Below are positions 16,475-54,011 of a stretch of 64,000 bases of DNA, piece by piece. Numbering within the stretch: the first letter of the stretch is position 1; every line of letters starts with the position of its first letter. The position numbers and the translations under genes are program-made. The DNA comes from Scleromatobacter humisilvae (GTDB lineage: Bacteria > Pseudomonadota > Gammaproteobacteria > Burkholderiales > Burkholderiaceae_C), in NCBI RefSeq assembly GCF_023231945.1, contig NZ_JAJLJH010000001.1:186001-250000 (forward strand). Reading direction: 5' to 3'. The notes beneath the pieces were generated by a model. It worked only from the letters and a program-made list of their open reading frames with translations, had not been told where the DNA came from and ran no database searches.

Positions 16475-16662
16475 GGAGGATTCAATGAGTCCTGTTCAGT
16501 CGGAAAGGTTCCGGGGAAACATCTCATGCTGTTCAGCAGGCGCATTGTAGGCAGCAAGAACGAGGCCTGCTTGTAGGTCAACAGCGCATCCGCCCGGGGC
16601 CGGATAATGCGCGTTCCTGTCGTTCGGCGGGCGGCACCGGCCGTCCGCCCCATCCCGCCTCG

Positions 16663-37392: not shown

Positions 37393-38622
37393 TCAGCCGA
37401 ACCAGCGCCGGAAGATCAACGAGGTGTTGATGCCGCCGAACGCGAAATTGTTGCTCATCACGATGTCGGTCTCGATGACGCGGCCGCCGCCGGTGATGTA
37501 GTCGAGCGCGCCGCAGCGCGGGTCGACCTCGTCGAGGTTGAGCGTGGGCGCGAACCAGCCCTCGCGCATCATCTCGATGGTCATCCAGGCCTCCAGCGCG
37601 CCGCAGGCGCCCAGCGTGTGGCCCATGTAGCTCTTGAGCGAGCTGATCGGCATGTGCGTGCCCAGCACCTCGCTGGTGGCCTGCGATTCGGCCATGTCGC
37701 CCTGCTCGGTGGCGGTGCCGTGCGCGTTGACGTAGCCGATCGAGTCAGGCGTCAGGCGCGCGTCGACCAGCGCCAGCCGCATCGCCTGCGCCATCGTCGC
37801 GGCGTTGGGGTGCGTCACGTGCGTGCCGTCGGAGTTGGTGCCCCAGCCCAGCAGCTCGGCATGGATGCGGGCGCCGCGCGCGAGCGCGTGATCGAGTTCC
37901 TCCAGCACCAGCGTGCAGGCGCCCTCGCCCAGCACCAGCCCGTCGCGCTTCGCGTCGAACGGGCGCGGCGTCAGGGTCGGCGTCTCGTTGCGGGTGCTGG
38001 TCGCGAACAGCGTGTCGAACACGGCGGCCTCGGTGGCGTCGAGCTCCTCGGCGCCGCCGGCCAGCATCGCCACCTGGCGGCCGCTCTGGATCGCCTCGAA
38101 CGCGTAGCCGATGCCCTGGCTGCCCGAGGTGCAGGCGCTGGACGTCGTGACGATGCGCCCGGTCAACCCGAAGAACACGCCGATGTTGACGGCCGCGGTG
38201 TGCGACATCATCTTGATGTACGTGTTGGCCGTGATGCCCTCGGTGGACTTGTCGTGCATCATGCGGCCGAAGTCGCCGAGTGCCTGCGGCGTGCCGGCCG
38301 ACGAGCCGTACGACACGCCCATGCGCCCGCTCGTGACCAGCGGATCGCCCAGCAGCCCCGCGTCGGCGAGCGCCAGCTCGCTCGCGCGCGTGGCCATGAT
38401 CGCGACGCGGCCCATGCTGCGCATCGACTTGCGGTTGTAGTGCGCGGGCAGCTCGAACGGCTTCGCGGGCACGCCCAGCTGCGTGTTGAGGCCGTCGTAC
38501 TGCGCCCAGTCCTCCATGACCTGCACGGCGTTGCGGCCGCCCTTGAGCGCGGCGAGCACGCTGGGCCAGTCGTGGCCCAGCGGGCTGATGGCGCCGAATC
38601 CGGTGACGACGACGCGCTTCAT
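37393..38622 (-). CDS. apeR: APE 3-ketoacyl-ACP synthase ApeR (FabF-like)
   Basis: A 409-residue condensing enzyme that extends the polyene chain with malonyl-ACP. All catalytic residues are visible: Cys164 in TSSACTSGSQG, His301 in NAHGTATEQGD, Lys330 and His335 in SLKSYMGHTLGAC. The C-terminal FGGINTSLIF is the usual Gly-rich loop. It closes the ape operon: the order N-O-P-Q-R is that known from E. coli and Xenorhabdus ape clusters. The ATG overlaps the apeQ stop by four bases. Confidence 0.94.
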   Translation of the reverse strand: MKRVVVTGFGAISPLGHDWPSVLAALKGGRNAVQVMEDWAQYDGLNTQLGVPAKPFELPAHYNRKSMRSMGRVAIMATRASELALADAGLLGDPLVTSGRMGVSYGSSAGTPQALGDFGRMMHDKSTEGITANTYIKMMSHTAAVNIGVFFGLTGRIVTTSSACTSGSQGIGYAFEAIQSGRQVAMLAGGAEELDATEAAVFDTLFATSTRNETPTLTPRPFDAKRDGLVLGEGACTLVLEELDHALARGARIHAELLGWGTNSDGTHVTHPNAATMAQAMRLALVDARLTPDSIGYVNAHGTATEQGDMAESQATSEVLGTHMPISSLKSYMGHTLGACGALEAWMTIEMMREGWFAPTLNLDEVDPRCGALDYITGGGRVIETDIVMSNNFAFGGINTSLIFRRWFG

Positions 38623-39371
38623 CCGACCATGCCCCCGTTGACCGAGATCACCTGGCGCGTGATGTACGCCGCCTCGGGCCTGAGCAGGAAGGCGACCAGC
38701 GCGGCCACCTCGTCGGGGGTGCCCATGCGGCGCAACGGGATGATCTTCATCGCTTCCTCCAGCACCTCGGGCGGCACCATCTCGGTGTCGATCAGCCCCG
38801 GCGCCACGCAATTGACGGTGATGGCACGCTTGGCGAGCTCGACGGCCAGCGACTTCGTCGCCGCGATCACGCCCGCCTTGGCGGCACTGTAGTTGGTCTG
38901 CCCGCGGTTGCCCATCAGCGCCGACACCGAGGCCAGCGTGACGATGCGCCCCGGCTTGCGGCGCTGGATCATCGGCATCACGACCGGGTTGAGCACGTTG
39001 AAGAAGCCGTCGAGGTTGGTGTGGATGACGGCGTCCCACTCCTCGCCGCTCATCGCCGGGAACGCGTTGTCGCGCGCGATGCCCGCGTTGCAGACGACGC
39101 CGTAGTAGGCGCCGTGCTGCTCGATGTCGGACAGCAGCGCGGCCGACGCGGCGGCGCGGTCGGCGACGTCGAACGCCAGCACGTGGGCCTCGCGGCCAAG
39201 CGCCGCGATCTCGTCGCACACCGCGCGCGCCTGCTCGAGGCCCGTGCGGCAATGCACCACGACGTCGTGGCCGTCGCGCGCCACCGCGAGCGCGATCGCG
39301 CGCCCGATGCCGCGGCTCGCGCCGGTGACCAGCACGCGCTTGCGCTCGGCTGCCTTGTTCGTCTCAGTCAT
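38619..39371 (-). CDS. apeQ: APE 3-ketoacyl-ACP reductase ApeQ (FabG-like)
   Basis: A short-chain dehydrogenase of 250 residues that reduces the 3-keto group after each condensation, using NADPH. The cofactor loop is GASRGIG (residues 18-24), NAG sits at 95-97, and the catalytic triad is Ser148, Tyr161 and Lys165 (ASVSALMGNRGQTNYSAAKAG). It lies between the dehydratase and the second ketosynthase with four-base overlaps at both ends. Confidence 0.95.
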   Translation of the reverse strand: MTETNKAAERKRVLVTGASRGIGRAIALAVARDGHDVVVHCRTGLEQARAVCDEIAALGREAHVLAFDVADRAAASAALLSDIEQHGAYYGVVCNAGIARDNAFPAMSGEEWDAVIHTNLDGFFNVLNPVVMPMIQRRKPGRIVTLASVSALMGNRGQTNYSAAKAGVIAATKSLAVELAKRAITVNCVAPGLIDTEMVPPEVLEEAMKIIPLRRMGTPDEVAALVAFLLRPEAAYITRQVISVNGGMVG

Positions 39372-39865
39372 CGTTGTCCTTCCCTCGGGCCGTTCTGCGT
39401 CGACCCTTCCCCTGAATCTTGCGGCGGCTCGAACACGTTCAAGCGCCCGCTCGCCACCACGCGGCCGGCCTGTTCGATGCGGCAATCGAACACGCCAAGG
39501 CCGTTCTCTCCCGTCAGCTCGCACTGCGCGAACACCCGGAGCTCGGTGCCGGCCTCGAACGCCGGCACCATGGCCTCGTAGCGCCGGCTGCCCAGCAGGT
39601 AGCCGATTCTCGGCGATCCGCCGGCCGTGCGGGCGCGCGCGCCCGACCAGGCCGCGATCGCCTGCGCCATGTACTCGATGCCGACCCACGCCGGCACGCC
39701 GTCGGCGCCCTCGAACGGGCCGCCGGCGGGCACGCGCAGGCGCGCCTCGATGCGCTCCTCGTCGCAGTGCTCCACGGCGTCGAGCAGGCTCATCGCGCCG
39801 CGGTGCGGCACCCAGGCGTCCATGGCATGCGGCGGCCACGGCCCGTCGTTGCGGCCGGCGCTCAT
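39368..39865 (-). CDS. apeP: APE 3-hydroxyacyl-ACP dehydratase ApeP
   Basis: A 165-residue hot-dog-fold protein. VPHRGAMSLLDAVEH carries the His that serves as catalytic base, and VGIEYMAQAIAAWSG is the buried central helix. In ape systems ApeP pairs with ApeI to remove water and leave a trans double bond. Here the ApeI-like domain is fused to the ligase gene further upstream. The C-terminal tail after NVFEPP is polar and probably disordered. Confidence 0.9.
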   Translation of the reverse strand: MSAGRNDGPWPPHAMDAWVPHRGAMSLLDAVEHCDEERIEARLRVPAGGPFEGADGVPAWVGIEYMAQAIAAWSGARARTAGGSPRIGYLLGSRRYEAMVPAFEAGTELRVFAQCELTGENGLGVFDCRIEQAGRVVASGRLNVFEPPQDSGEGSTQNGPREGQR

Positions 39866-41043
39866 GGCTGCGAGAACAGCAACGACGCGTTGCTGCCTCC
39901 GAAGGCGAACGAGTTGCTCAGCACATGGCGCACCGGCCGGCCCAGCGCCATGCCCGGCGCCACCGGACGCAGCGCCGGCAGCGCGGGGTCGGCGACGCCG
40001 TCCCACCAGTGCACCGGCAGCCGGCCGTCCGGGTTGTCGACCAGCGCGTGCCACGCGAACGCGGCCTCGATCGCGCCGGCCGCGGCCAGCGCGTGGCCGG
40101 TCAGCGGCTTGGTGGAGCTCACCGGCACGTCGCGGCCCAGCACGCGGTCGACGGCCAGGCTCTCCATCGCGTCGTTCTGCGGCGTGGCGGTGCCGTGCAG
40201 GTTGACGTAGTCGACCTCGCGCGGCGCGACGCCGGCCCGTGCGAGCGCGCGCTGCATCGCCTCGGCGGCACCGCGCCCGCTGGGCTCGGGCGCCGACATG
40301 TGGTGCGCGTCCGCGCTCTCGCCCCAGCCCGCGAGTCGCACCGGTCCCTCGTCGCGTCCCATCAGGAACAGCGCGGCGCCTTCGCCGATGTTGATGCCCG
40401 CGCGGTTGGCCGACAGCGGGTTGCAGCGTTCGGCCGACACCGCCTCCAGCGCCGAGAAGCCCGCGATCGTGAAGCCCGACAACGCATCGCCGCCGCCCGC
40501 GACGACCGCGTCGACCAGCCCCGAGCGCAGCAGCCGCGCGCCGCTGGCCAGCGCCTTCGCGCCCGACGAGCACGCCGTGGAAATGACGAAGGCGGGCCCG
40601 CTGGTGCCCAGCTCCCGCGCGACGCATTGCGCCGCGTTGCCCATCTCCTGCAGCGCGTAGTCGTAGCCTGGCGGCCAGCCGAAGCCGGCATGCACCTGTC
40701 GGATCGCGGCGACGCCTTCGTCGAGGCCCGCGGTGCTGACGCCCAGCACCACCGCGACGCGCGACGGCCCGAAGCGGTCGACCGCGGCCTGCACCTGCGG
40801 GCGCAGCGGCGCCAGCGCGGCCAGCAGCAGCGCGTTGTTGCGGCTGCGCTGCTTCGCCGGAAGGCCGGCCACGGACGGCAACGGCGTCGCCACGCAGCCG
40901 AGGTTGAGCATGCGGCCCGGGGTATGCGCATCGGTGGGCGCGACGCCCGAGGGCGCGTCGGCCCACAGCGCAGCGCGGATCGCCTCGGGCGTGTCGCCGA
41001 GCGCGCAGACGCAGGATTGGGCTTGCAGGTAGATGGCGGTCAT
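39862..41043 (-). CDS. apeO: APE ketosynthase ApeO
   Basis: A 393-residue ketosynthase. Cys158 in ISTACSSGAK, His283 in NLHGTATPQND, Lys312 and His317 in STKPLTGHALA are all intact, so it should be catalytically active. ApeO is the usual partner of the ApeC chain-length-factor-like protein and starts or extends the aryl polyene. The N-terminus MTAIYLQAQSCVCALGD is that of the subfamily. It directly follows the ApeN lipoprotein gene with a four-base overlap. Confidence 0.93.
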   Translation of the reverse strand: MTAIYLQAQSCVCALGDTPEAIRAALWADAPSGVAPTDAHTPGRMLNLGCVATPLPSVAGLPAKQRSRNNALLLAALAPLRPQVQAAVDRFGPSRVAVVLGVSTAGLDEGVAAIRQVHAGFGWPPGYDYALQEMGNAAQCVARELGTSGPAFVISTACSSGAKALASGARLLRSGLVDAVVAGGGDALSGFTIAGFSALEAVSAERCNPLSANRAGINIGEGAALFLMGRDEGPVRLAGWGESADAHHMSAPEPSGRGAAEAMQRALARAGVAPREVDYVNLHGTATPQNDAMESLAVDRVLGRDVPVSSTKPLTGHALAAAGAIEAAFAWHALVDNPDGRLPVHWWDGVADPALPALRPVAPGMALGRPVRHVLSNSFAFGGSNASLLFSQP

Positions 41044-41603
41044 GGTCCGGGGGTCGCGTCGCTGGCGGCGCGCGACTCGATCTTCAGCTTGAAATGCTCG
41101 CGCCGCTGCTCGAGCTCGACGACCTGCGGCGCCGTGCGCGTGATCACCGTCACGACATCGCCGTCCTGGCGCAGCGTGCGCACGTCGCCTGCCTCCGCGA
41201 ACGTCCAGCCCGCCGGCAGCGCGGCCTGGATCGCGGCGACCGGCCACAGCGTCAGCTGCAGGTCGCTCAGGATGCGCGCGCCGGAGACGGCCTGCGGCCA
41301 CCAGGGCGCGCGTTCCTCGGTCAGCGTCGTGCCGTCCCACGCGAGGCGCGCGGCCACCTGGCCCATCGCCACGACGCCCAGTTGCACGTGCTGCGCGTCG
41401 GCCTCCAGCAGCACGTCGAGCTGCTGGTCGTGGCCGGGCGCCTGCAGCGTCAGGTGCTGCTGCAGATCGACCGGATGGCCCAGCAGCGCCGGCGCGAGGC
41501 GCAGCTGCGGCGCCTCGTGCGCGCTCGCGCGCGGCGGCGCGGACGCGCAGGCGCCCAGCGCGCCCAGCGCGCCCAGCGCGACGATCGCGATCAGTCGCTG
41601 CAC
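41040..41603 (-). CDS. apeN: APE lipoprotein ApeN (DUF3261 family)
   Basis: A 187-residue probable outer-membrane lipoprotein: a GTG start preceded by GGAGG, then VQRLIAIVALGALGALGAC, where LGAC is the lipobox. The mature part matches the layout of DUF3261 proteins found in ape and flexirubin-type clusters (QHLTLQAPGHDQQLDVLLE, PAGWTFAEAGDVRTLRQ). Thought to help place the pigment in the outer membrane with the LolA-like and MMPL proteins. Three exact 9-bp repeats (41551-41577) encode the LGA repeats of its signal peptide. It overlaps the flavoprotein gene by 13 bp. Confidence 0.86.
   Translation of the reverse strand: MQRLIAIVALGALGALGACASAPPRASAHEAPQLRLAPALLGHPVDLQQHLTLQAPGHDQQLDVLLEADAQHVQLGVVAMGQVAARLAWDGTTLTEERAPWWPQAVSGARILSDLQLTLWPVAAIQAALPAGWTFAEAGDVRTLRQDGDVVTVITRTAPQVVELEQRREHFKLKIESRAASDATPGP
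41551..41577. repeat. Three tandem 9-bp repeats in the apeN signal peptide
   Basis: GCGCCCAGC is repeated three times head to tail, plus a partial fourth copy. The unit is a whole number of codons, so gain or loss of copies would change the length of the hydrophobic core of the ApeN signal peptide without shifting frame. Confidence 0.8.
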
Positions 41604-42823
41604 AGTTCCTCCAGCACGCTCAGGCGCCGCTTGGCCTGCGCGACGTACGGATTGGCCTGGTCCCACGCATAGCCCGCGAGGATGGACGAGATCATGCGGC
41701 GGATGTCGGGCGTGTGGCGCTGGTGGAAGATGATCTTCTGGAAGCCGCCCGCGTACCACGCGTCGACGAACGCGCGGAAGGTGTCGACGCCGGCCTTCAG
41801 CGGCACGGCGTAGTCGGCCTGCCAGTCCACCGCCTCGCCGGCGAACTCGCGAGCGATGCACTGCGTGGCGAGCGACGCCGACTTGAATGCGATCGTCACG
41901 CCGCTCGAGAACACCGGATCGAGGAACTCGCCCGCGTTGCCCAGCAGCGCGAAGCCCTTGCCCCACAGCGACTTCACGTTGGCCGAGTAGCCGACGATCT
42001 GGCGCGCCGGCGTGTCCCATTCGGCGTCCTTGAGCAGTTCGCCCAGCGTGGGCACCTCGGCCAGGATCGCACGCAGGCGCTCGGTCTCGGTGCCGGTGTA
42101 CTGCGCCAGGTACGCCTGTTCGGCGACGACGCCGATCGAGCAGCGGCCGTTGGAGAACGGGATCGTCCAGAACCAGACGTCCGCGCGGGTCGGATGCACC
42201 GTCACGCGGATCTTCTGGCGATCGAACGAGCCGCCCTGCGGGATGTGGTCGGCCACGTGCGTGAAGATCGCGCCGCGCACCGGGAAGCTGGACGGCGTCT
42301 CGAGCTTGAGCAGGCGCGGCAGCGTGCGGCCGAAGCCGCTGGCGTCGAGCACGAAGCGGGCCTCGACGTGCAACTCGTTGCCGTCCGCGTCGCGCGCCGA
42401 CACGCGCGGCCGCTCGCCCTCGAGATCGATCGCGGTCACCTCGTGGCGGTAGCGGATCTCGGCGCCCATGCGCGCGGCGGCATCCGCCAGCACCTTGTCG
42501 AAGGTCGCGCGCTGCACCTGGTAGGTCGTGGCCCAGCCGTCGGAGAACTTGTCGCGGAAGTCGAAGTCGGTGTACTTGTCGCGCCATGCGAACGCGGCGC
42601 CGTTCTTGTACTGGAAGCCGGCCTCGACGACGTCGCGCAGCATGCCGGCGGCCTCGATGTATTCCATGCTCTGCGGCAGCAGGCTCTCGCCGATCGAGAA
42701 GCGCGGGAACTGCTCGCGCTCCAGCACCAGCACGCTTCGGCCCTGCTGGCGCAGGAAGCCGGCGGCGACGGCGCCCGCGGGGCCCGCGCCGATGATGAGG
42801 ACGTCGGGGGATTCGAGAGTCAT
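41591..42823 (-). CDS. FAD-dependent halogenase-like monooxygenase
   Basis: A 410-residue flavoprotein. FAD-binding GAGPAG lies at residues 12-17 and the second FAD motif is GNAGEFLDPVFSSGV. The flavin-dependent halogenase motif WxWxIP is present as WFWTIP (217-222), and Lys73 in FQYKNGAAF lies where the family's catalytic lysine is expected. Xanthomonadins, brominated APEs of Xanthomonas, also have a putative halogenase in their cluster, so halogenation of the aryl or polyene part is the leading idea. A non-halogenating oxidoreductase of the same superfamily cannot be excluded. It lies between apeM and apeN, with overlaps at both ends. Confidence 0.85.
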   Translation of the reverse strand: MTLESPDVLIIGAGPAGAVAAGFLRQQGRSVLVLEREQFPRFSIGESLLPQSMEYIEAAGMLRDVVEAGFQYKNGAAFAWRDKYTDFDFRDKFSDGWATTYQVQRATFDKVLADAAARMGAEIRYRHEVTAIDLEGERPRVSARDADGNELHVEARFVLDASGFGRTLPRLLKLETPSSFPVRGAIFTHVADHIPQGGSFDRQKIRVTVHPTRADVWFWTIPFSNGRCSIGVVAEQAYLAQYTGTETERLRAILAEVPTLGELLKDAEWDTPARQIVGYSANVKSLWGKGFALLGNAGEFLDPVFSSGVTIAFKSASLATQCIAREFAGEAVDWQADYAVPLKAGVDTFRAFVDAWYAGGFQKIIFHQRHTPDIRRMISSILAGYAWDQANPYVAQAKRRLSVLEELCSD

Positions 42824-45186
42824 GGAAGCTTCGCGGTAACGGGTGCGGGTCGATAGAACGGTGCGGAGAACCACACCAGGAGAATGCCGAAAAGGAGCGT
42901 CAGTCCGAACGAGCGTAACGCCGGCGTGCTCGACAGCGCCAGCAGCCCGAACGACAGCCACGTGCCGCCCGCGCCGAGCACGACGGCCAGCCAGGCGGCG
43001 CCGGCGTCGGCGTCCTCGCGTTCGAGCAGGAAGATGCCGTAGTCGATGCCGATGCCCAGCAGCAGCGCCAGCGCGAGCACGTTGAACAGTTGCAGTGGCT
43101 GGCCGAACAGCGCGAGCAGCGCCAGCGTGCCCAGCGTCGCGACGGCCGTGGGCATCCACGCGCGCCACGCGCGGCGGCCATAGCGCCAGCTCAAGGCGAG
43201 CAGCACGGCCGCGTGGCCGGCGACCAGCAGCAGGCCCATCATGTGGCGGTAGCGTCCGAGCAGCGCCGAGACCGACTGCACCTGGTCGACCCAGCGCACG
43301 CCGGCCAGGCCGTCGGCGCTGCGCGCGATGTCCGGCAGGGACGCGAGGTCGCGCACGCCGCGCAGCATCACGACGCTCGCGAACGCGGTGCCGTCGGCGC
43401 CGCGCGGCACCGAGCCGATCCACAGCGCGCGGCCGGCCGTCGCCGCCGGCGACGCGAGCCAGCGCTCCAGCGTCAGCGGCGCGGCCTCGAAGCGCGCGCG
43501 CTGCTGCGACTCGCCCAGCACCTGGTCGACACCGGCGATCACGCCGTCCTCGACGCGCCGGGTCAACGCGGCATCGCTCGCCTGGAGTGACAGCGACGGC
43601 ACCCAGTCCGACAACGCGCGATAGCCCGCGAGCTCGCCGCCGGCGACGCGCGCGTCGAGACGCATCTTCAACGCCTCCTCGCGCCGCAGCACGTCGTCGG
43701 CGCTCGTGCCGCGCACGACGAAGAACTGCGCGGGACTGGGCAAGCCCAGCAGGCGGCCGATCTCGCGCTGCGCGTCGACCAGCGCCGGCGGCGAGTTCTG
43801 CAGCTGGCGCAGGTCGTCGCTGACGCGCAGGCCGGCGATGCCTGCGCCGCAAGCCAGCAAGAACGCGGCGTGCACGATCCACGTTGCACGCGTCGCGCCG
43901 AAGCGCGGATAGCGCACGAAACTGGCGGCGATCCAGCGCGCGAAGGCGCTGCCGCGCGGCGTGCCGCGGTCGATCCACGGGAACCAGCACACCGTCGTCG
44001 CGAAGCTGGCCACGATGCCGACGACCGAGAACAAGGCCATCTGGCGCAGCCCCGGGAACGGCGGCAGGCCGAGCGCGACATAGCCCAGCACGCTGGTCAG
44101 CAGCGCGAGCGCGAGGCCGGGCAGCAGCGTCGACATCATGCGCAGCGGCGGCGTGTCGGGCGCGCCCTGGCGGTTGGCGAACCAGTACAGGCCGTAGTCC
44201 TCGGCGCAGCCGACCAGGCTGGCGCCGAAGACGAGCGTCAGCAGGTTGACCTCGCCGAACACCCACGCCGTCACCGACAACGCCGACGCCATGCCCACCA
44301 GCAGCGACACGGCCATCAGCAGCCGCGGCCACAGCGAGCGGAACGCGAGGATGGCCAGCAGGAGCACGCCGGCGACCGAGCCCCAGCCGATCGTGTTGAT
44401 CTCGAAGTGCGCACGCGCCGCGGCGACCTCGGCATGCAGCGGGACGCCGCCGGCGATCACCTTCGCGCCGGGCACCGCGGACGTCGCGGCGGCCTGCGCC
44501 TTCGCGAGCGCGTCCGCGATCGGCGACTCGCCCGTCAACGCGAACGCCGGCCCCGTCGTCTCGCGAAACAGCGCCACCCATTCGAGGCCGCCGTCGCTCA
44601 GCGCCAGCCGGCCGTCGCGCGGCCGCGCCCGCGTGTCGCTCGCGCGCGCGAGCCACCACTGCGGCCACAGGCCCAGCGGGTCGGCGTTCCAGTCGGCCAG
44701 GCGCAGGCCGCCACCCGGTTGCGCAAGCGCGGCGAGCGCGCCCTGCACCAGCGACTGCGGCGCCGCCCGTTCGAGCTGCGCGCGCTGCGCGGGCGCCAGC
44801 AGGCGGTCGCGGTACGGCGCGTAGAACGCCATCGTGTCGCGCAGCGCGTCGGGGCCGGCCATCACGCTCGGCTTCAACTGCGCGGGGCCAGCGTCGATCG
44901 ACTGCTGCCATGCGTCGGCGGCCCTCGTCGCGCCCGCCCAGTCGGGCGCGCCGACCAGCACGACGACCTGGCGCGTGACCTGGCCGGCAAGCTGCCGCGT
45001 GGCGCGGTCGACCTCGGGCGCCTGCTCGTCCTGCGGCAGCAGCGCCATCACGTCGGTGCCGAAGTGGCCGGCGCGCCAGAACGCCCACTGGTGCGCGGCC
45101 ACGACCACGCAGAACGCCAGCCACAGCCACGCCGCCGCCTGCCAGCGCAGGCGGTGCAACGGACGCTCGCCGGGCCGCAGGCTCAT
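42820..45186 (-). CDS. apeM: APE exporter ApeM (MMPL/RND-like)
   Basis: A 788-residue membrane protein with two repeats, each a first helix, a large periplasmic domain and five or six clustered helices: residues about 15-400 and 410-788. Motifs GCAEDYGLYWF in the first and LGIGIDYGIFLLERED in the second carry the acidic residues used for proton-coupled transport in MMPL proteins. In ape clusters this protein is thought to move the lipid-linked polyene out of the inner membrane. The start is MSLRPGERP, overlapping the LolA-like gene. Confidence 0.92.
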   Translation of the reverse strand: MSLRPGERPLHRLRWQAAAWLWLAFCVVVAAHQWAFWRAGHFGTDVMALLPQDEQAPEVDRATRQLAGQVTRQVVVLVGAPDWAGATRAADAWQQSIDAGPAQLKPSVMAGPDALRDTMAFYAPYRDRLLAPAQRAQLERAAPQSLVQGALAALAQPGGGLRLADWNADPLGLWPQWWLARASDTRARPRDGRLALSDGGLEWVALFRETTGPAFALTGESPIADALAKAQAAATSAVPGAKVIAGGVPLHAEVAAARAHFEINTIGWGSVAGVLLLAILAFRSLWPRLLMAVSLLVGMASALSVTAWVFGEVNLLTLVFGASLVGCAEDYGLYWFANRQGAPDTPPLRMMSTLLPGLALALLTSVLGYVALGLPPFPGLRQMALFSVVGIVASFATTVCWFPWIDRGTPRGSAFARWIAASFVRYPRFGATRATWIVHAAFLLACGAGIAGLRVSDDLRQLQNSPPALVDAQREIGRLLGLPSPAQFFVVRGTSADDVLRREEALKMRLDARVAGGELAGYRALSDWVPSLSLQASDAALTRRVEDGVIAGVDQVLGESQQRARFEAAPLTLERWLASPAATAGRALWIGSVPRGADGTAFASVVMLRGVRDLASLPDIARSADGLAGVRWVDQVQSVSALLGRYRHMMGLLLVAGHAAVLLALSWRYGRRAWRAWMPTAVATLGTLALLALFGQPLQLFNVLALALLLGIGIDYGIFLLEREDADAGAAWLAVVLGAGGTWLSFGLLALSSTPALRSFGLTLLFGILLVWFSAPFYRPAPVTAKLP

Positions 45187-46225: not shown

Positions 46226-47762
46226 GCAGGGTCCATTCGCGGGCGCGGATTGCGGTGAGCAGCGCGATCAGGTCGGTGTCGAGCGCGCGGTCCTCGGCGA
46301 CGAAGGCGACGCGGCGTTCGAGGTCGGCCTGGAACGCCTGCAGCGCGGCGCCGGGCACCACGTCGTCCTGCGCGCAACGCAGCGCGACGCCCTGGCGCGC
46401 GGCGACCAGCATCGCGGCGCAGACCTGCTCGGTGAGCTCCAGCACGCGCAGGCAGTCGCGCGCGGCGATGGTGCCCATGCTGACCTTGTCCTGGTTATGG
46501 CACTCGGTGGAGCGCGAGAACACGCTGGCCGGCATCGTCTGCTTGAGCGCCTCGGCCGTCCACGCCGACACGCTGATCTGCAGCGCCTTCAGGCCATGGT
46601 TGATCGCGGCACGCGGGCCGGTGGCGCCGGACAGGTTGGCCGGCAGGCCGTGGTTGTAGCGCGTGTCGACGAGCAGCGCGAGCTGGCGATCGAGCAGGTC
46701 GGCCACGTTGGCGACCGCGTTCTTCAGGCTGTCCATCGCGAACGCGATGTGGCCGCCGTAGAAATGGCCGCCGTGCAGCACCTGCTCGCGCTCGCCGTCG
46801 ATGATCGGGTTGTCGTTGGCCGAGTTGAGCTCGTTCTCGATCAGCTGGCGGAAGAACGGCAGCGCGTCCTCCAGCACGCCGACGACGTGCGGCGCGCAGC
46901 GCAGCGAGTAGCGATCCTGCAGGCGCTGCTCGTTGCGCGCGGCCGGCTTGTCGGACTCGATCGCCAGGTCGGCGCGGATGCGCGCGGCCACGCGCTGCTG
47001 GCCCGCGTGCGGCTTGACGGCGAACAGCGCCTCGTCGAAGTGGTGCGCGTTGCCCGCACTCGCCAGGACGTTGCACGCAGTGATTCGCGATGCGAGCCGC
47101 GAGACGTATTCGGCGCGTTCGTAGGCCAGGCACGCCAGCGCGGTCATCACCGCGGTGCCGTTCATGATCGCCAGGCCTTCCTTCGGCCGCAGCCGCAGCG
47201 GCGCGCGGCCCAGCGCGGCAAGCGCCTCGGCGGCGGGCTGCACGCGGCCGCGGAACAGCACCTCGCGCTCGCCGCACAGCGCCGCGGCCACGTACGACAG
47301 CGGCGTCAGGTCGCCGCTCGCACCGACCGAGCCTTCGGCGGGGATGCGGGGCAGCACGTCGTGCTCGATGAACGCGGCGAGCTGATCCAGCAACTCGACG
47401 CTGACGCCCGAGACGCCCTGCGCCAGCGACTGCAGCCGCGCGGCCAGCACCGCGCGCGTCTCCTCGGCATCGAGCATGCGGCCCAGGCCCACGCCGTGGT
47501 ACGCGAACAGGTGGTGCGGCAGTTCGGCCACGAACTCGGGCGGGATCACGACCGTGCACGAGTCGCCGTAGCCGGTCGTCACGCCGTAGACCACGCCGTC
47601 CTCGCGCAGCAGGCGCTCGAGGAAGTCGGAGCCGCGGCGGATGCGGGCCAGGAACGTGGGGTCGCGGGAGAGCTCGGCGCGGGCGTCGCGCGAGGCGACG
47701 GCGCAGACGTCTTCGATCGTCAGCGCGCGGCCGTCGAAGGTGATGGACCGGGAATCAGTCAT
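46212..47762 (-). CDS. Aromatic amino acid ammonia-lyase (HAL/PAL/TAL family)
   Basis: A 516-residue MIO enzyme. Ala148-Ser149-Gly150 in GSVGASGDLTPLSY makes the MIO cofactor; Tyr59 in VVYGVTTGYG is the catalytic tyrosine; NDNPII is the substrate-binding segment. The selectivity pair in the loop LFAYHGVGLG reads Tyr88-His89, not the Ser-His of histidine ammonia-lyases, which argues for tyrosine or phenylalanine as substrate. Flexirubin-type clusters use a tyrosine ammonia-lyase to make 4-coumarate as starter. Set within the ape operon, the same role is likely; it is not part of a hut cluster. Confidence 0.9.
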   Translation of the reverse strand: MTDSRSITFDGRALTIEDVCAVASRDARAELSRDPTFLARIRRGSDFLERLLREDGVVYGVTTGYGDSCTVVIPPEFVAELPHHLFAYHGVGLGRMLDAEETRAVLAARLQSLAQGVSGVSVELLDQLAAFIEHDVLPRIPAEGSVGASGDLTPLSYVAAALCGEREVLFRGRVQPAAEALAALGRAPLRLRPKEGLAIMNGTAVMTALACLAYERAEYVSRLASRITACNVLASAGNAHHFDEALFAVKPHAGQQRVAARIRADLAIESDKPAARNEQRLQDRYSLRCAPHVVGVLEDALPFFRQLIENELNSANDNPIIDGEREQVLHGGHFYGGHIAFAMDSLKNAVANVADLLDRQLALLVDTRYNHGLPANLSGATGPRAAINHGLKALQISVSAWTAEALKQTMPASVFSRSTECHNQDKVSMGTIAARDCLRVLELTEQVCAAMLVAARQGVALRCAQDDVVPGAALQAFQADLERRVAFVAEDRALDTDLIALLTAIRAREWTLHDHA

Positions 47763-48750
47763 GGCGCGTGGGCGTGGGAGGCGCGGCGAGCGCCCCGGGT
47801 TGATTCCAGAAGGAAAAGAAGTTGAACCACTCGTACGGCGCCCGCGCCAACAGGCGCTCGATGCGGCCCGCGAACTCCGCGGCGTAGGCCGCGCACGCGC
47901 CGAGGCGGTCGCCGCGCGGCAGCACGACGCGCTCGGCGAGGCGTTCGAAGACGACCTCGTGCGTGTCGCCCTGGCGGATGCAGCCCAGCGCGTAGAGCGG
48001 GCACTTCAGCAGCGAGGCCAGCATGTAGGCGCCGGTCGGGAACGGCGCGGCGTGGCCGAGGAAGGGCACCTGCACCGCGCTCGCGCGTCCGGCGACGATG
48101 GGCACGCGGTCGCCCGCGATCGCGACGAACTCGCCGCGCTCGACGCGTTCGGCCAGCAGCACCGCGGTGGCCGGCGTGATCTCGGTCACCTGCATCAGCG
48201 CGATGCCGCGCCCCGGCGACAGCCGCTCCAGCATGCGGTTGAACTGCTGCGCGTGCACGGTGTGCACCAGCACGGTCAGCTTCATGCCGGGCGTGGCCTC
48301 GGCCGAGGCCTGGCACATCTCGAGGCAGCCCATGTGGGCGGTCACCAGCAAGCCGCCCTGCTTCGCGCGCACCATCGCGTCGATCGCCTCGCGGCCGACG
48401 AAGCGGATGCGGTCGAGCCGGTAGCGGCCGCCGACCGCGAGCATCTTGTCGAGGATGGTCTCGGCGAACGACAGGAAGTGGCGCAGCGTGTCGCGCCGGC
48501 CGGGTGCGTGGCCCAGCGCGCCGGTGGCCTGCTCGAGCCGCTGCAGGTATTCGAGCGAGGCCTCGCGCGCCGCGCGGCTGACGGCCCAGTACCAGAGCAC
48601 CACCGGGTACAGCACGACGCGGAACGGCAGCCGGCCGCCGACGCGAAACAGCGCGTACATCAGCCACATGCCGCCGGCAAACGTCTCCTCGCCGATCGCC
48701 GACCAGTGCCGCTGCCCGGTGCCCGACGTGCGTTGCTGCACCGTGCTCAT
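47755..48750 (-). CDS. Acyltransferase, LpxL/HtrB-like
   Basis: A 331-residue membrane-bound acyltransferase. After an N-terminal hydrophobic region (GMWLMYALFRVGGRLPF, VVLYPVVLWYWAV) comes GGLLVTAHMGCLEMCQ, an HxxxxE-type catalytic motif of the lipid A acyltransferase family, and FVAIAGDRVPI downstream. In E. coli the ApeJ protein joins a glycosyltransferase and this acyltransferase in one chain; here they are two adjacent genes. Probably adds an acyl chain to the lipid anchor of the pigment. It overlaps the lyase gene by eight bases. Confidence 0.88.
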   Translation of the reverse strand: MSTVQQRTSGTGQRHWSAIGEETFAGGMWLMYALFRVGGRLPFRVVLYPVVLWYWAVSRAAREASLEYLQRLEQATGALGHAPGRRDTLRHFLSFAETILDKMLAVGGRYRLDRIRFVGREAIDAMVRAKQGGLLVTAHMGCLEMCQASAEATPGMKLTVLVHTVHAQQFNRMLERLSPGRGIALMQVTEITPATAVLLAERVERGEFVAIAGDRVPIVAGRASAVQVPFLGHAAPFPTGAYMLASLLKCPLYALGCIRQGDTHEVVFERLAERVVLPRGDRLGACAAYAAEFAGRIERLLARAPYEWFNFFSFWNQPGALAAPPTPTRHD

Positions 48751-49484
48751 CGTGCCACCTTGCGCCACAGCAGCATCGGCGCGCGCAGCAGCATGCCGAA
48801 CGCCAGGCGCGTGTGCATCTTCGTGATCAGCCAGTTGTCCAGCCCGAGCCGGAAGTGCGACAGGCCGTCCTGCGGATACGTGACGCGCGTGGGGATGCTG
48901 ACGATGCGCAGCCCGCGCCAGTGCAGCCGCACCAGCACCTCGGGATCGAAGTCCATGCGGCGCCCGAGCCGCGCCTCGCCGAACAGCCGGACGACCGGCG
49001 CGAGCGGATAGACGCGGAAGCCGCACATCGAATCACGGATCTCCAGCGACAGCGAGTTGATCCATACCCAGATGTGCGTGGCATAGCGGCCGACGAGCCG
49101 GCCCATCGGCACCGACTCGTCGTAGACCGGCACGCCGCAGATCACGGCGTCGGGCTCCGCGGCGGCTTGCGCGAGGAACTTCGGGATGTCGCCGGCGTCG
49201 TGCTGGCCGTCGGCGTCGATCTGCAGCGCGTGCGAATAACCGGCGTCTGCAGCGGCGCGCAGGCCGGCCATCATCGCGCCGCCCTTGCCCTGGTTCAGCG
49301 CCAGCCGCACCAGCGTGACGTCGGGCGCCTGCGCGAGCGCGTCCAGCACGGCGGCGCAGCCGGCGGAGCTGCCGTCGTCGACGAGGATGCAGCGCAGCCC
49401 GTGCGAACGCACGTTGGCCGCGACGGCGCCGACCGCCTCGCCGTGGTTGTAGACCGGGATCACCGCGACGGGATCGAACGTCAC
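48747..49484 (-). CDS. Glycosyltransferase family 2
   Basis: A 245-residue GT-A glycosyltransferase: VAVIPVYNHGEAVG opens the fold, VDDGSS binds the nucleotide, LNQGKGGAMMAGL follows, and DADGQHD carries the metal-binding DxD. It resembles dolichol-phosphate-mannose-synthase-like enzymes. Likely attaches a sugar between pigment and lipid anchor, corresponding to the N-terminal half of E. coli ApeJ. GTG start overlapping the ligase-dehydratase stop (GTGA). Confidence 0.9.
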   Translation of the reverse strand: MTFDPVAVIPVYNHGEAVGAVAANVRSHGLRCILVDDGSSAGCAAVLDALAQAPDVTLVRLALNQGKGGAMMAGLRAAADAGYSHALQIDADGQHDAGDIPKFLAQAAAEPDAVICGVPVYDESVPMGRLVGRYATHIWVWINSLSLEIRDSMCGFRVYPLAPVVRLFGEARLGRRMDFDPEVLVRLHWRGLRIVSIPTRVTYPQDGLSHFRLGLDNWLITKMHTRLAFGMLLRAPMLLWRKVAR

Positions 49485-51319
49485 GCGGCCCCCGCCTCGG
49501 CGAACACGATGCGGCCGCTGGAGTGGCGGCCGGCCGTGGAGCGGTACTCGAACTGCAGCGTCGCGGTCGCGGCGTTCCAGTGCAGTTCCAGGTCGATGGT
49601 CATGCCCGGCAGCGCCGGCTGCGAGAACTTCAGCGCGTCCATGCGGATGAAGCGCGCCGGCATCGCGAAGCGTTGGCGCGCGAAGACGATGGCCCAGTCC
49701 ACCTGCGCCACGCCGGGCAGGATGGGCGCGCCGGGAAAGTGGCCGTCGAACACCAGCAGGTTGGACGACAGCGCCAGCGAGGCCTGCGCGTGCGCGGCCT
49801 CGGCGATGCGCCATCGAGGCGTCGGCCGCTGCGGCCGCGCGGCCACCGGCGGCGCGAACAGCGCGCCCAGCAAGGCCTCGGTCGTCTTGCCCTGCGCGTT
49901 GACGGGCAGCGCGTCGACGAAGCGCCAGCGCCGCGGCAGCGCGACGCGGTCGACCGCTGCCAGCAGCAGCGCGCGCAGTTCGGCGGACAGCGCCGGCTTG
50001 CCGACGCGCCGCAGCTTCGCGCGGCCGGCCTCGGTCAGCGCGGCGACCACCGCCGGCCGCAGCGCATGCGCCACGGCGGCGCCCGCGTCGTCGACCACCG
50101 GCGGCTCGTCGGCCAGCATCAGCACGCGCGCCTCGGCGACGTCGCCGCTGCCCGCCAGGCGCCGCTCGATCGCGGTGAGCGACACGCGCTTCTCCTCGAT
50201 CTTGACGATGCGGTCGGCACGGCCGTGCAGCTCGAAGCCGTCCATGCCGTCGCCGGCCGGTGTCGCGCGGTCGGACGTGCGCCACCAGTCGAGGTCGGGC
50301 AGGTGCGGCGAGCGCACGCTGAGCTCGCCGTCCTCGATGCGGAACGCGATGCCCGGCAGCGGCTGCCAGGTGTCGCCGTGGCGCGCGCGCTGGCGCCAGG
50401 CGACGCCGCCGGTCTCGGAGCTGCCGTAGACCTCCACCGGCGCGCAGCCCAGCAGCGCCAGCGCGCTGTCGGCGGCCTCGGGCGGCAGCGGGCCGCCGGA
50501 CGAGAACACCGCGCGCAGGTTGGCCCGCGCGGCCGACCAGTCGGCCGCCTCCGGCAGCCGGCGCAGGTGCGCGGGGCTGGCCACGAGCACCGCGGGCGAC
50601 GCGATGCGCTGCGCGATCTCCTCGTTGAAGGCGAGGCGCTCGGCCGCGAACGGCCGGCCGGCGGCGAGCGGCCACAGCACGCGAAACAGCAGGCCGTAGA
50701 TGTGCTGGTGCGTAACGGTGGCCCAGACCAGCGGCGCGGCGCCGTCGGCCTCGCGCGCGAGGCCCGCCACCGCATCGCCGGCGGCGACCGTCTCCGGCGC
50801 GAGGTTGACGGGCGCGAGGCCGGTGTCGCACAGCGTGCCGAAGCGCAGCTCGAGCGCGTGCACTTCGGCGTCGAGTTGCGCGAGCCGCTTGGGGATCGCG
50901 AGCGGCTCGCCGCTGGTGCCCGAGGTGTGGACGATCAGCTGCGTGGCCGCGCGATCGAGCGGCTCGAACGCGGCCGCGCGCGCGGGTGCGGGACGCGCGA
51001 GCGCGCCCGGCAGGTCGCCGAGGAAGCCGTCGCAGTCCGCGCGCAGGCGGGCGACGGTGTCGTCCTGCATGTCGCCCGGAACGATCACCGTCTTGCCGGC
51101 GTGCCAGGCGCCGAACAGCGCGGCGGCGAAGTCGAAGGTGTCCTCGGCGAACAGCGCCCAGCGCGTGCCGCCCTGAGTGGCAAGCAGGTCGCGCCAGGCG
51201 CCGGCCTGGCCGGCGAAGTCCGCTGCAGACAGTGGTTCGCACGCGCGCCAGGCCACCGCGGTCGAGGCGGCGGCGCGGGGCAGTCCGGTCAGCGGCCGCC
51301 AGCCGGCCGCGTCAGCCAT
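49481..51319 (-). CDS. apeHI: APE aryl-acid AMP ligase fused to dehydratase (ApeH-ApeI)
   Basis: A 612-residue two-domain enzyme. Residues 1 to about 490 are an acyl-adenylate ligase: HTSGTSGEPLAIPK (131 on) is the P-loop, YGSSETGGVAWR the A5 region, and Lys478 in NAQGKTTEALL the catalytic lysine. It would activate the aryl starter acid and load it on a carrier protein. Residues about 505-612 are a FabA/FabZ-like hot-dog domain with FDGHFPGAPILPGVAQVDWA, equal to the separate ApeI dehydratase of E. coli. No stop or frameshift lies between the two parts, so the fusion is real in this sequence. Confidence 0.91.
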   Translation of the reverse strand: MADAAGWRPLTGLPRAAASTAVAWRACEPLSAADFAGQAGAWRDLLATQGGTRWALFAEDTFDFAAALFGAWHAGKTVIVPGDMQDDTVARLRADCDGFLGDLPGALARPAPARAAAFEPLDRAATQLIVHTSGTSGEPLAIPKRLAQLDAEVHALELRFGTLCDTGLAPVNLAPETVAAGDAVAGLAREADGAAPLVWATVTHQHIYGLLFRVLWPLAAGRPFAAERLAFNEEIAQRIASPAVLVASPAHLRRLPEAADWSAARANLRAVFSSGGPLPPEAADSALALLGCAPVEVYGSSETGGVAWRQRARHGDTWQPLPGIAFRIEDGELSVRSPHLPDLDWWRTSDRATPAGDGMDGFELHGRADRIVKIEEKRVSLTAIERRLAGSGDVAEARVLMLADEPPVVDDAGAAVAHALRPAVVAALTEAGRAKLRRVGKPALSAELRALLLAAVDRVALPRRWRFVDALPVNAQGKTTEALLGALFAPPVAARPQRPTPRWRIAEAAHAQASLALSSNLLVFDGHFPGAPILPGVAQVDWAIVFARQRFAMPARFIRMDALKFSQPALPGMTIDLELHWNAATATLQFEYRSTAGRHSSGRIVFAEAGAA

Positions 51320-51935
51320 GCGCCGCCCCGTCGGCGGCAATGCGCGCACGCACGCGGCGGCGCACCAGCCACTCCCCGCCCATCAGCAGGCCCATCGCGA
51401 TGTACGACAGCAGCCCGTTGTAGAGCGCCCAGGCGCCTGCGCTGGCCCACAGCGCGGTGGCTGCGGCGATGAGGCCGTTGACGACGAAGAAGCCGCACCA
51501 CACCTGCGTGACGCGCCGCGTGTAGGCCACCGCCGCGGGCGGGAAGTCCGGCTCGCGCAGGCGCGCCAGGCGTTCGACGACGCTCGGGCCGCGCCACAGG
51601 CTGCTCGCGAACAGGCCCAGCATCACGAGGTTGACGAGCGCCGGATAGAGCTTCAGCGGCCCCCACTGGTCGCCCAGCGCGCCGGCGACGGCGAGCACGC
51701 CGGCCAGCGCCGCCGCGACCAGCCAGAACGACTCGCGCGTGACCCACGCGCGCGCCAGCGCGAGCGCGACCAGCAGCAGCGCGATCCAGCGCGGGCTGAC
51801 GTGCCCCAGCGCCAGGTACACGACGACCGGGTACGCCAGGCTCACGGCCAGCAGCACCGCGGCCAGCAGCGGCGGCGTCCTGCGCGCGGTCGCGGCGGCC
51901 GGGGCCGGCGTGGCGGTGGCCATCGAGGAGATCAC
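51312..51935 (-). CDS. apeG: Membrane protein ApeG (COG4648-like)
   Basis: A 207-residue inner-membrane protein with about six hydrophobic helices (LLAAVLLAVSLAYPVVVYLAL, WIALLLVALALA and on). The conserved block QWGPLKLYPALVNLVMLGLF and YTRRVTQVWCGFFVVNG is that of the COG4648 proteins that sit between the carrier proteins and the ligase in ape clusters. Role unknown, perhaps an assembly scaffold. The start is GTG at 51935, overlapping the carrier-protein stop; an ATG 12 bp later is possible but has no ribosome site. Confidence 0.86.
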   Translation of the reverse strand: MISSMATATPAPAAATARRTPPLLAAVLLAVSLAYPVVVYLALGHVSPRWIALLLVALALARAWVTRESFWLVAAALAGVLAVAGALGDQWGPLKLYPALVNLVMLGLFASSLWRGPSVVERLARLREPDFPPAAVAYTRRVTQVWCGFFVVNGLIAAATALWASAGAWALYNGLLSYIAMGLLMGGEWLVRRRVRARIAADGAAHG

Positions 51936-52186
51936 GCGTGCGGCTCGTGCACGAGTCCGTACAGCGCGTCGACGACGTCCTGCACCGTGCGCACCGACTT
52001 GAAGGCCTCGGGCTGCAGCCGCTTGCCGACGAGCGGCTTGAGCTGCACGATGAGGTCGACGGCGTCGATCGAGTCGATGTCCAGGTCCTCGCCGAGGCGC
52101 GATTCGCGCGTGATGCGCGACGGCTCGATGTCGAAGGTCTGGTGCAGGATCTCGACGATCCGCGCGAAGATGTCGTCCTTGGTCAT
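51932..52186 (-). CDS. apeF: Acyl carrier protein (second of pair)
   Basis: An 84-residue acidic four-helix carrier protein. Phosphopantetheine attaches at Ser39 in LDIDSIDAVDL. Carries the growing aryl polyene as a thioester. The letter (F) is given by gene order in known ape clusters. It overlaps neighbours by four bases on both sides, so stoichiometry with the other carrier protein is probably fixed. Confidence 0.92.
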   Translation of the reverse strand: MTKDDIFARIVEILHQTFDIEPSRITRESRLGEDLDIDSIDAVDLIVQLKPLVGKRLQPEAFKSVRTVQDVVDALYGLVHEPHA

Positions 52187-52458
52187 TGCGGGTTTCCTTG
52201 AGCCTTGCCCTGCGAGATCACGAAGGCGGCCAGCGCCTTGACGCTCGCGAAATGCGCGCGCACTTCCTCCGACTCGGCCGACAGGCTCACGCCGTAGCGC
52301 TTCTGCAGCGCGAGGCCGAGCTCGAGCGCGTCGATCGAATCGAGGCCCAGGCCGTCGACGAACAGCGGCGCGCTCGCGTCGATGTCGTCCGGCGTGACGT
52401 CTTCCAGCGCCAACGAGGAAATGATGAGTGCCTTGATGTCGTTCTCAAGCTGCTGCAT
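52183..52458 (-). CDS. apeE: Acyl carrier protein (first of pair)
   Basis: A 91-residue carrier protein with the modified Ser41 in LGLDSIDALELGL. It differs clearly from the second carrier protein, so the two probably have separate partners, one for the starter and one for elongation (as proposed in Xenorhabdus). It overlaps the acyltransferase gene by 14 bp. Confidence 0.92.
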   Translation of the reverse strand: MQQLENDIKALIISSLALEDVTPDDIDASAPLFVDGLGLDSIDALELGLALQKRYGVSLSAESEEVRAHFASVKALAAFVISQGKAQGNPQ

Positions 52459-53257
52459 GGGGTCTCTCAGCGCCGAGGAGGCGCGCCAGTTCGTCGGTGA
52501 GGCGGCGTGCGGCCAGCGCTTGCGCGCCGTCCTCGGCCAGGTGGGAATCGATCGGGATGTCCTCGCCGACGTCGATCGTGAAGTGCCCGGCGCGCGGCGG
52601 CACGCGCCACCACTTGTCGGTCTTGGCCAGCATCGGCTGCGAGCAGGTGATGCGCACCGGTGTGATGGACAACGCGCCGCGCACCGCCAGGTTGGCGGCG
52701 CCGCGCTGCAGGCGGCCCAGCGGGCTGCCGGCCGGCGTGCGCGTGCCCTCGGGGAAGACGATCAGGTTGTTGCCGGCGCGCACGGAGGCGACGCAGTCGT
52801 CGATCATGCCCGGGCCCGAGTCGTTGCAGACGAAGCCGGCGGCGCGCACCGGGCCGAGCGTGAACGGATTGCGCAGCAGCGCCGCCTTGACGATGCAGTC
52901 GGCGTCGCGCACCAGCGCCATCAGGAACACGACGTCGATCAGCGACGGATGGCTCGCGAGGATCAGCAGCCCGTGGCGCCGCAGCCGCTCGCGGCCGCGC
53001 ACCTCCACGCTGCACAGGCGAAAGCCGCACATCATCGCGACGAACGCGCGGAACAGGTGATGGATGACGCCGCGCATCAGCGCCGAGCGGCGCCGGCGAT
53101 GGCGCACGACGACCAGCATCAGCGGCGCGACCACGACGCCCAGCAGCAGCCCGCCGACGCCGAACAGCGCGAACGAGAAGCCGGTGGCCGCGACGCGCCA
53201 CCAGCGGTTGAGCAGCGAGCTGCGCTCGATCTGCCCGATGACCGCGGCCTCAGACAT
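52445..53257 (-). CDS. apeD: Lysophospholipid acyltransferase-like protein (ApeD)
   Basis: A 270-residue PlsC-family enzyme. An N-terminal hydrophobic hairpin (FSFALFGVGGLLLGVVVAPL) anchors it; the catalytic motif is HPSLID (about residues 102-107) and the phosphate-binding motif FPEGTRTP. In ape clusters this gene sits between the chain-length-factor-like protein and the carrier proteins and is thought to take part in lipid attachment. The start is MSEAAVIGQ, eight bases inside the preceding gene. Confidence 0.88.
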   Translation of the reverse strand: MSEAAVIGQIERSSLLNRWWRVAATGFSFALFGVGGLLLGVVVAPLMLVVVRHRRRRSALMRGVIHHLFRAFVAMMCGFRLCSVEVRGRERLRRHGLLILASHPSLIDVVFLMALVRDADCIVKAALLRNPFTLGPVRAAGFVCNDSGPGMIDDCVASVRAGNNLIVFPEGTRTPAGSPLGRLQRGAANLAVRGALSITPVRITCSQPMLAKTDKWWRVPPRAGHFTIDVGEDIPIDSHLAEDGAQALAARRLTDELARLLGAERPHAAA

Positions 53258-54011
53258 CGCGGCTCCACACACAGCGGCGGCCGTCGACCTGCTGCACCAG
53301 TTCGGGCGCGTCGGACAGGCCGAACCACAGCGCCTGCAGGCTGGCCGGCAGCTGTGGCGGCATCGCGCCGGCGTCGCCGCCCGCCGCCTGCCAGTCCAGG
53401 TGCAGCGCGCGTTCGCCCGCGCGCGGGCGGCGCAGCTGCCAGGCCCAGGCGAAGTGCGCCGACGGCTCGTCCTCGAACGATGCGTAGCCCGCCGGCAGCG
53501 GCGAGTCGTAGACGATGAGGCTGGCGCTGCGCGCGCCGTCGTCCAGCAGCGCCATCGCCTCGACCACGCCCGCCGCGGCGGTGGCGCGGCCCGCCGCGAT
53601 GGCCGACGAGTTGCGGCGGTCGCCGCGGGTCAGCGCGATCATCGCGCCGATCGCGTTGTGCACCGACAGGCCGAAGGCCGTGGGCGACAGCGCGTCGCCG
53701 CGCGCCTGGTCGGCCAGCAGCTCGAGGCAGCGGCCCGTCTCGCCGTAGCGCGATGCGTAGACGGTGGGGTTGTCGTCGGGATCGGCATCCTCGGGCAGCG
53801 TGACCGCGCCCGCCAGGTCGATCGCGGCCTGCGCGGCCAGCCGGCCCAGCGGCGCGAAGCGCCGGCGCAGCATCGGCGCGACCGCCGCCAGCGCGACCTG
53901 CGGCTCGCCCTCGGGCAGCCATGGCGCGGCCGCCCACTGCGACCAGCGCTGCGGCGTGTCCACGCCGGGCGCGCACGCCGCCCAGGACTCGATGACGAAT
54001 GAAAGACTCAA
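53250..54011 (-). CDS. apeC: Ketosynthase-like chain-length factor (ApeC)
   Basis: A 253-residue, half-length ketosynthase homologue that begins LSLSFVIESWAACAPG. It lacks the catalytic Cys and the His/Lys set, as expected for a chain-length-factor-like partner of ApeO. The conserved VYASRYGE and SVHNAIGAMIALTRGDRRNSS segments are visible. It is the first gene of the operon. The proposed start is TTG at 54011 with CAGGG eight bases before it; no ATG or GTG fits the family N-terminus. Confidence 0.85.
   Translation of the reverse strand: MSLSFVIESWAACAPGVDTPQRWSQWAAAPWLPEGEPQVALAAVAPMLRRRFAPLGRLAAQAAIDLAGAVTLPEDADPDDNPTVYASRYGETGRCLELLADQARGDALSPTAFGLSVHNAIGAMIALTRGDRRNSSAIAAGRATAAAGVVEAMALLDDGARSASLIVYDSPLPAGYASFEDEPSAHFAWAWQLRRPRAGERALHLDWQAAGGDAGAMPPQLPASLQALWFGLSDAPELVQQVDGRRCVWSRDV

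Follow-up and report, generated by a model that had tools for sequence, protein, structure and literature searches.

Does a pigment operon that carries two enzyme types known from different pigment systems make a new compound, or is it a familiar operon with accessory genes? The question was raised by a locus of Scleromatobacter humisilvae (Burkholderiales; genome of high GC, 6.27 Mb), located in a stretch of 64,000 nucleotides that is hereafter called the window (contig NZ_JAJLJH010000001.1, positions 186,001 to 250,000). The locus at window positions 37393-54011 is a real and complete aryl polyene (APE) operon of 18 genes, among which are a methylidene-imidazolone (MIO) ammonia-lyase and an enzyme with the fold of flavin-dependent halogenases (FDH). 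This gene set, an APE set with an MIO lyase and a WxWxIP flavoenzyme, had been claimed in the original prediction and was confirmed by Pfam and NCBIfam profiles and by the motifs GASGDL and WFWTIP. The prediction had further regarded the two enzymes as a mix of flexirubin and xanthomonadin features that may define a chemically new APE. According to the analysis reported here, the operon is very probably of the ordinary, membrane-anchored Escherichia coli type, a standard set of genes for a yellow pigment of the membrane, with two common and independent accessory cassettes.

Distribution of the lyase and the FDH

Genome contigs were scanned with a profile of the FDH alignment, which yielded at least 583 confirmed relatives, and the best 80 loci were kept. 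A lyase was located nearby in 59 of these 80, a share that describes the closest relatives and is not an estimate from a random sample. The loci with both genes span several proteobacterial families and Myxococcota, and include those of Duganella, Collimonas, Herbaspirillum, Pseudoxanthomonas, and Stenotrophomonas, as well as Corallococcus and Archangium from the Myxococcota. The other 21 loci had no lyase, some of them perhaps only through contig ends. The positions of the two genes were highly regular. Of the 59 lyase-bearing loci, 57 had the lyase flanked by the ApeJ acyltransferase and ApeK, and the FDH lay between the exporter ApeM and ApeO in every one of the 71 loci that allowed both to be placed. 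In two Cupriavidus loci (L058 and L066), the lyase was found downstream of ApeR. The relocated lyase of L058 (Cupriavidus sp. amp6, 16656-18158) has one in-frame TGA, and a pseudogene or a sequencing error is possible.

Samples drawn by taxonomy were then compared. In the family sample of 60 genomes, the FDH was present in three, including the S. humisilvae genome itself, and the lyase was present in the same three, approximately 4.5-4.8 kb apart; in the genus sample, all four genomes had the FDH. The class-level sample was less biased and comprised 185 genomes, again with S. humisilvae included, and the thresholds were E 1e-60 for the FDH and E 1e-80 for the lyase. ApeP was detected in 16 of the 185 genomes, of which five (S. 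humisilvae among them) had both genes, four the lyase only, three the FDH only, and four neither (Fisher p = 1). In the four lyase-only genomes, the lyase occupied its usual slot, and no FDH match was found in the stretches taken. Two genomes without ApeP fell outside this table, namely, G148, which had a 39% lyase match, and G182, in which the FDH was located on a contig of 4.9 kb.

On a quick tree of the FDH with 79 scored rows, the fewest-changes count gave at least six changes of lyase state; by the group table, no more than two are forced by well-supported branches, and the tree had several flagged long branches. No lyase state was assigned to a further 14 FDH rows of the tree owing to a flank that was too short, the lack of an APE operon or, in Acidovorax sp. 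CF316 (L065), a lyase fragment elsewhere, which was 73% identical and located at a contig end. Because the slots are fixed, no association appeared in the class sample, and the lyase state changes along the FDH tree, it appears that the lyase and the FDH are cassettes independent of each other. Against this reading, the clusters of G108, G160, G203, and G207 among the 16 genomes are rearranged, and the split that remains without them (both, five; lyase only, four; FDH only, two; neither, one; Fisher p = 1) holds numbers too few to prove independence.

Other explanations for the loci without a lyase were considered and rejected. A lyase kept elsewhere in the genome was searched for in the whole genomes of L052, L060, L062, L067, L075, and L103, with L044, L048, and L087 outside the search, and an APE-type lyase was found in none of the six (best identity 35-38%). 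That another gene has taken the place of the lyase was also dismissed: of 13 lyase-less loci, 12 have fewer than 130 bases separating the ApeJ acyltransferase from ApeK, and the slice of the thirteenth ends before this gap.

Function of the halogenase-fold enzyme

The FDH gene (41591-42823, minus strand) matched PF04820 with an E value of 1.7e-25. The halogenase signature residues that were checked are present as K73, WFWTIP, and FLDPVFSSG, and Lys73, WxWxIP, and FxDPxxSxG were retained in 93 of 93 FDH rows (92 of them different, as L019 and L102 are identical). Lys73 was aligned with a Lys in each of five structures, namely, 3nix, CndH, 8zop, ChlB4, and 5bul. We take Lys73 to be the catalytic Lys and the other two motifs to have the roles ascribed to them in the halogenase literature. 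The AlphaFold model of the FDH, built from an 11-row alignment, had a predicted local distance difference test (pLDDT) score of 91.2, and its superposition on 3nix, the closest solved structure, gave a template modeling (TM) score of 0.94 at 44% identity. In the fold list, 3nix occupied ranks 1-6 and halogenases ranks 7-38, among them CndH, 8zop, ChlB4, Bmp2, and Mpy16.

It is nonetheless quite conceivable that the FDH is another flavin enzyme that has kept the fold, such as a head-group hydroxylase, an oxidase, or a reductase. Geranylgeranyl reductases and the monooxygenase QhpG also matched the FDH in NCBIfam, below cut-off, p-hydroxybenzoate hydroxylases appear in the fold list from rank 39, and no halogenated product of such an operon is reported among the literature matches listed. 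Against this alternative stand the Lys and both motifs, invariant in all rows, and the unbroken series of halogenases that follows 3nix. Thus, a halogenated head group is possible from the conserved residues, and halogenation is slightly favored over a different flavin oxidation. Three points nevertheless count against the explanation proposed for the operon: 3nix, which comes from Cytophaga hutchinsonii, has no assigned function; no recognised flavin reductase was found among the 18 genes; and we know of no pigment product from S. humisilvae or from any relative with both genes. The broader proposal that the FDH is a true halogenase in many APE operons, with a large unrecognised share of bacterial APEs chlorinated or brominated, lyase operons starting from 4-coumarate, and the window operon as one member, is put forward tentatively, and we consider it rather doubtful.

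Relatives of the FDH were also observed outside APE operons. In several Cupriavidus loci, L049 (Cupriavidus pinatubonensis), L071-L073, and L038, an APE-type FDH is present, and the 10 kb flanks retrieved around it contain no APE operon that could be recognised. The FDH of L049 lies among genes that look flagellar by eye, and Cupriavidus sp. amp6 has the non-operon copy L071 besides its APE-operon copy L058. A plasmid of Aureispira anguillae (Bacteroidota; L112, 10821-12074) bears a 41% identical relative outside an apeC-R operon, near a fusion of MMPL, acyltransferase, and methyltransferase domains and an AMP-binding protein.

Substrate of the ammonia-lyase

The lyase gene (46212-47762, minus strand) matched PF00221 with an E value of 1.2e-159, and its MIO motif is GASGDL. 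The MIO position reads ASG in 66 of 67 relatives and DSG in one. At the first selectivity position, NQD is found in the window lyase and in all 67 relatives, whereas the HutH of the same genome has QED at that place; the other selectivity motif is YH in 59 relatives, FH in eight, and SH in HutH. The roles of these motifs are presumably those generally ascribed to them. They are also discussed in PMC3992019. Since the lyase has NQD together with YH or FH, an aromatic substrate is favored, as in FlxA. A histidase is not favored: the key Glu is replaced by Gln, and the true HutH, which scored over the hutH cut-off, is encoded at a separate place on the same contig as the operon. An MIO motif with a non-histidase active site is therefore present, and the window lyase is probably a tyrosine ammonia-lyase, as judged from these residues. 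RmXAL was considered for comparison and turned out to be yeast in origin.

Some results run counter to the assignment to tyrosine. The lyase scored 405 bits with hutH and 422 bits with the tyrosine ammonia-lyase subfamily BagA/FevW, in both cases below cut-off, and according to PMC3992019, sequence is an unreliable guide to the substrate preference of MIO lyases, FlxA itself being histidine ammonia-lyase-like at one motif. The lyase might thus be a phenylalanine ammonia-lyase or act outside the pigment pathway. This is consistent with a substrate that cannot be called from sequence and with the placement downstream of ApeR in the two Cupriavidus loci, but we regard it as unlikely given the same in-operon slot in nearly all lyase-bearing loci and the hydroxylated head groups of the APEs described in PMC8253772.

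If 4-coumarate is the starter, it would give the same scaffold as 4-hydroxybenzoate with one elongation, and the lyase would thereby affect how the precursor is supplied but leave the scaffold unchanged. A chorismate lyase was detected over cut-off in the genome; therefore, 4-hydroxybenzoate should be available as well. The part of the original prediction that expected an arylacrylate-derived pigment is plausible, and a halogenated one is possible, with a lyase unlike histidases at the key residue and the checked halogenase residues kept.

Comparison with flexirubin and xanthomonadin clusters

Flexirubin clusters (flxA-flxY, darA/B) likewise have an MIO lyase for an aryl-acrylate starter, a LolA protein, and an exporter, and the lyase they use is a tyrosine ammonia-lyase, as described in PMC3992019; the same source states that chlorination varies among flexirubins. 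Unlike in these clusters, the window lyase fell below the FlxA cut-off (NF053541, 319.7 bits against 700), close to the 309.4 bits of the HutH of the same genome, and no DarB was found over cut-off in the genome, the best score with NF053539 being 35 bits against 550 (DarA was not searched for).

Xanthomonadin and arcuflavin clusters likewise make an aryl polyene pigment and have flavoproteins of the FDH fold. Their starter is supplied by a XanB2-type chorismatase, as given in PMC3949708 and PMC3691225. Xanthomonas clusters have a halogenase gene and brominated pigments, and the cluster of Lysobacter enzymogenes has no halogenase and a pigment that showed no bromine pattern, as reported in PMC3691225; arcA of the arcuflavin cluster is annotated as a halogenase according to PMC3949708. 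In the five regions read, clusters that we label xanthomonadin-type from gene content and family are rearranged and encode two flavoproteins, with 30-34% and 25-28% identity to the window FDH. These Xanthomonadaceae-type regions (L140-L144) place the two different FDH-fold proteins approximately 10 kb apart, the second adjoining a family 2 glycosyltransferase (GT2) gene. In a set of 40 genomes from the family to which Stenotrophomonas belongs, an APE-type FDH was found in four (66-75% identity), and 21 had a protein of 29-36% identity, which in 15 of the 21 was accompanied by a second one (27-30%) on the same contig, 8-12 kb away. The first of these two groups of flavoproteins (X1, five rows) lay on its own side of a branch with support of 100, apart from the clade of the window FDH; the second (X2) was left out of the tree. 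Both groups likewise keep the Lys and WxWxIP.

That the operon is a hybrid of a flexirubin lyase and a xanthomonadin halogenase making a chemically new APE, as the presence of both enzyme types and the cited clusters had suggested, is very improbable and largely refuted by the wide distribution of the pair, by the FlxA and DarB scores, and by the separation of the FDH from X1. The two enzymes are frequent accessory genes, and chemical novelty finds no support in so widespread a gene set, with a coumaroyl starter expected to lead to the same scaffold. No description of an APE cluster combining a lyase with a halogenase was found among the matches listed in the openly licensed literature, and a name search in SEED gave no match.

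Gene content and order of the operon

The 18 genes are co-directional on the minus strand from 54011 to 37393, both ends having been placed correctly in the earlier annotation, and with the gene starts chosen here, all junctions but one are overlaps of a few bases. Each gene was identified individually from Pfam and NCBIfam profiles. All of the following genes are on this strand. The operon starts with an ApeC-like ketosynthase chain-length factor (53250-54011; PF13723, E 7.9e-49), followed by an ApeD-like lysophospholipid acyltransferase (52445-53257; PF01553) and two acyl carrier proteins (ACPs), one ApeE-like (52183-52458; PF00550, 64% identical to that of E. coli) and one ApeF-like (51932-52186; PF00550). 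An ApeG-like membrane protein (51312-51935) shares 42% identity with its positional counterpart in E. coli. The next gene (49481-51349) encodes an ApeH AMP-ligase (PF00501) fused to an ApeI dehydratase (PF22818). Besides the Pfam match, the identity of ApeI is based on an in-frame ApeI query that matched E. coli (40%), Pseudoalteromonas donghaensis, L060, and L028. Of the 80 loci with an ApeH match, 76 had a stop-to-stop frame of at least 540 codons, which gives an upper estimate for the ApeH-ApeI fusion. A GT2 glycosyltransferase (48747-49484) and a lipid-A-type acyltransferase (47755-48750) correspond to the N- and C-terminal halves of E. coli ApeJ by Pfam and by comparison with E. coli.

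After the lyase, which is an optional cassette, come the ApeK thioesterase (45806-46225; PF13279), the ApeL LolA-like carrier (45183-45797; PF03548), and the ApeM exporter of the MMPL/RND type (42820-45186; HpnN-like below cut-off, 31% identical to E. coli ApeM). ApeG and the exporter had no Pfam match and were identified by similarity and position relative to E. coli. The FDH, also an optional cassette, is followed by the ApeN DUF3261 LolB-like lipoprotein (41040-41666, with its start uncertain between 41666 and 41603; PF11659, 4.8e-35), the ApeO ketosynthase (39862-41043; NF006618 over cut-off), the ApeP dehydratase (39368-39865; PF22817, E 1.8e-22), the ApeQ ketoreductase FabG2 (38619-39371; TIGR01831 over cut-off), and the ApeR ketosynthase (37393-38622; NF006587 over cut-off). 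The APE-type dehydratases were thus identified over cut-off, with 80 bits for PF22817 (ApeP) and 50.7 bits for PF22818 (ApeI), and the ketosynthases and the ketoreductase by NF006587, NF006618, PF13723, and TIGR01831.

The functions from ApeC to ApeR and their order are shared with the E. coli cluster (APEEc, apeA-R), and tblastn of the window proteins against one annotated E. coli locus gave matches in the same order. The E. coli locus differs in that it has neither lyase nor FDH, both of which are also absent from its RefSeq annotation, and in that ApeH and ApeI are separate and ApeJ is one gene, whereas the window operon has ApeH-ApeI fused and ApeJ split. In Johnston et al. 2021 (PMC8253772), apeA-R of strain CFT073 is described with no lyase or flavoprotein, and 4-hydroxybenzoate (4-HBA) is the proposed starter. 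In Pseudoalteromonas donghaensis (NZ_CP032091), both the functions and their order are as in the window operon, and the public annotation includes an aromatic amino acid ammonia-lyase and an FAD-dependent oxidoreductase, which are 60% and 52% identical to the window lyase and FDH, respectively; its gene count is 19, since ApeH and ApeI are not fused. The comparison with the APE, flexirubin, and xanthomonadin families identified an ordinary APE operon whose order of functions already exists in P. donghaensis.

Proposed pathway

The genes present, their order and distribution, and the residues that are conserved were observed directly; the following steps are deduced from these. The lyase would deaminate L-tyrosine to 4-coumarate, which ApeH would load onto an ACP. 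The polyene would then be built by ApeR, ApeO, and ApeC with ApeQ and ApeP/ApeI, with ApeK responsible for its release. Anchoring to a lipid may be the task of the two acyltransferases together with the glycosyltransferase, and transport to the outer membrane is predicted for ApeM, ApeL, and ApeN. The phenolic head group is probably the target of the FDH, which would presumably obtain reduced flavin adenine dinucleotide (FAD) from a general flavin reductase.

Genes adjacent to the operon

Two genes just downstream, both on the minus strand, may be members of the operon. A 4'-phosphopantetheinyl transferase (35183-35848; PF01648) is the candidate activator of ApeE and ApeF, and a relative was found downstream of ApeR in 31 of the 60 loci in which over 4.5 kb of downstream sequence was available. 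An S-adenosylmethionine-dependent methyltransferase (34447-35166; PF08241) is a candidate head-group methylase; its membership is less sure because a relative occurred in only seven of these 60 loci. In the gap between the operon and the phosphopantetheinyl transferase, three small proteins (36815-37327, 36355-36702, and 35886-36317) look exported by eye and had no Pfam or NCBIfam match. Close to the operon start, on the opposite strand, lies a LytS-type sensor histidine kinase (55012-56109, plus strand; PF06580), a putative regulator candidate, with a response regulator, as read by eye, directly downstream.

Significance

The window operon is a member of a well-populated APE subtype, and the chemical question it poses concerns the FDH. 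If the two cassettes are independent at fixed slots, the APE operons offer a four-way genotype, with both genes, either one, or neither, for comparing pigments, in which the lyase would act in starter supply and the FDH in head-group tailoring.

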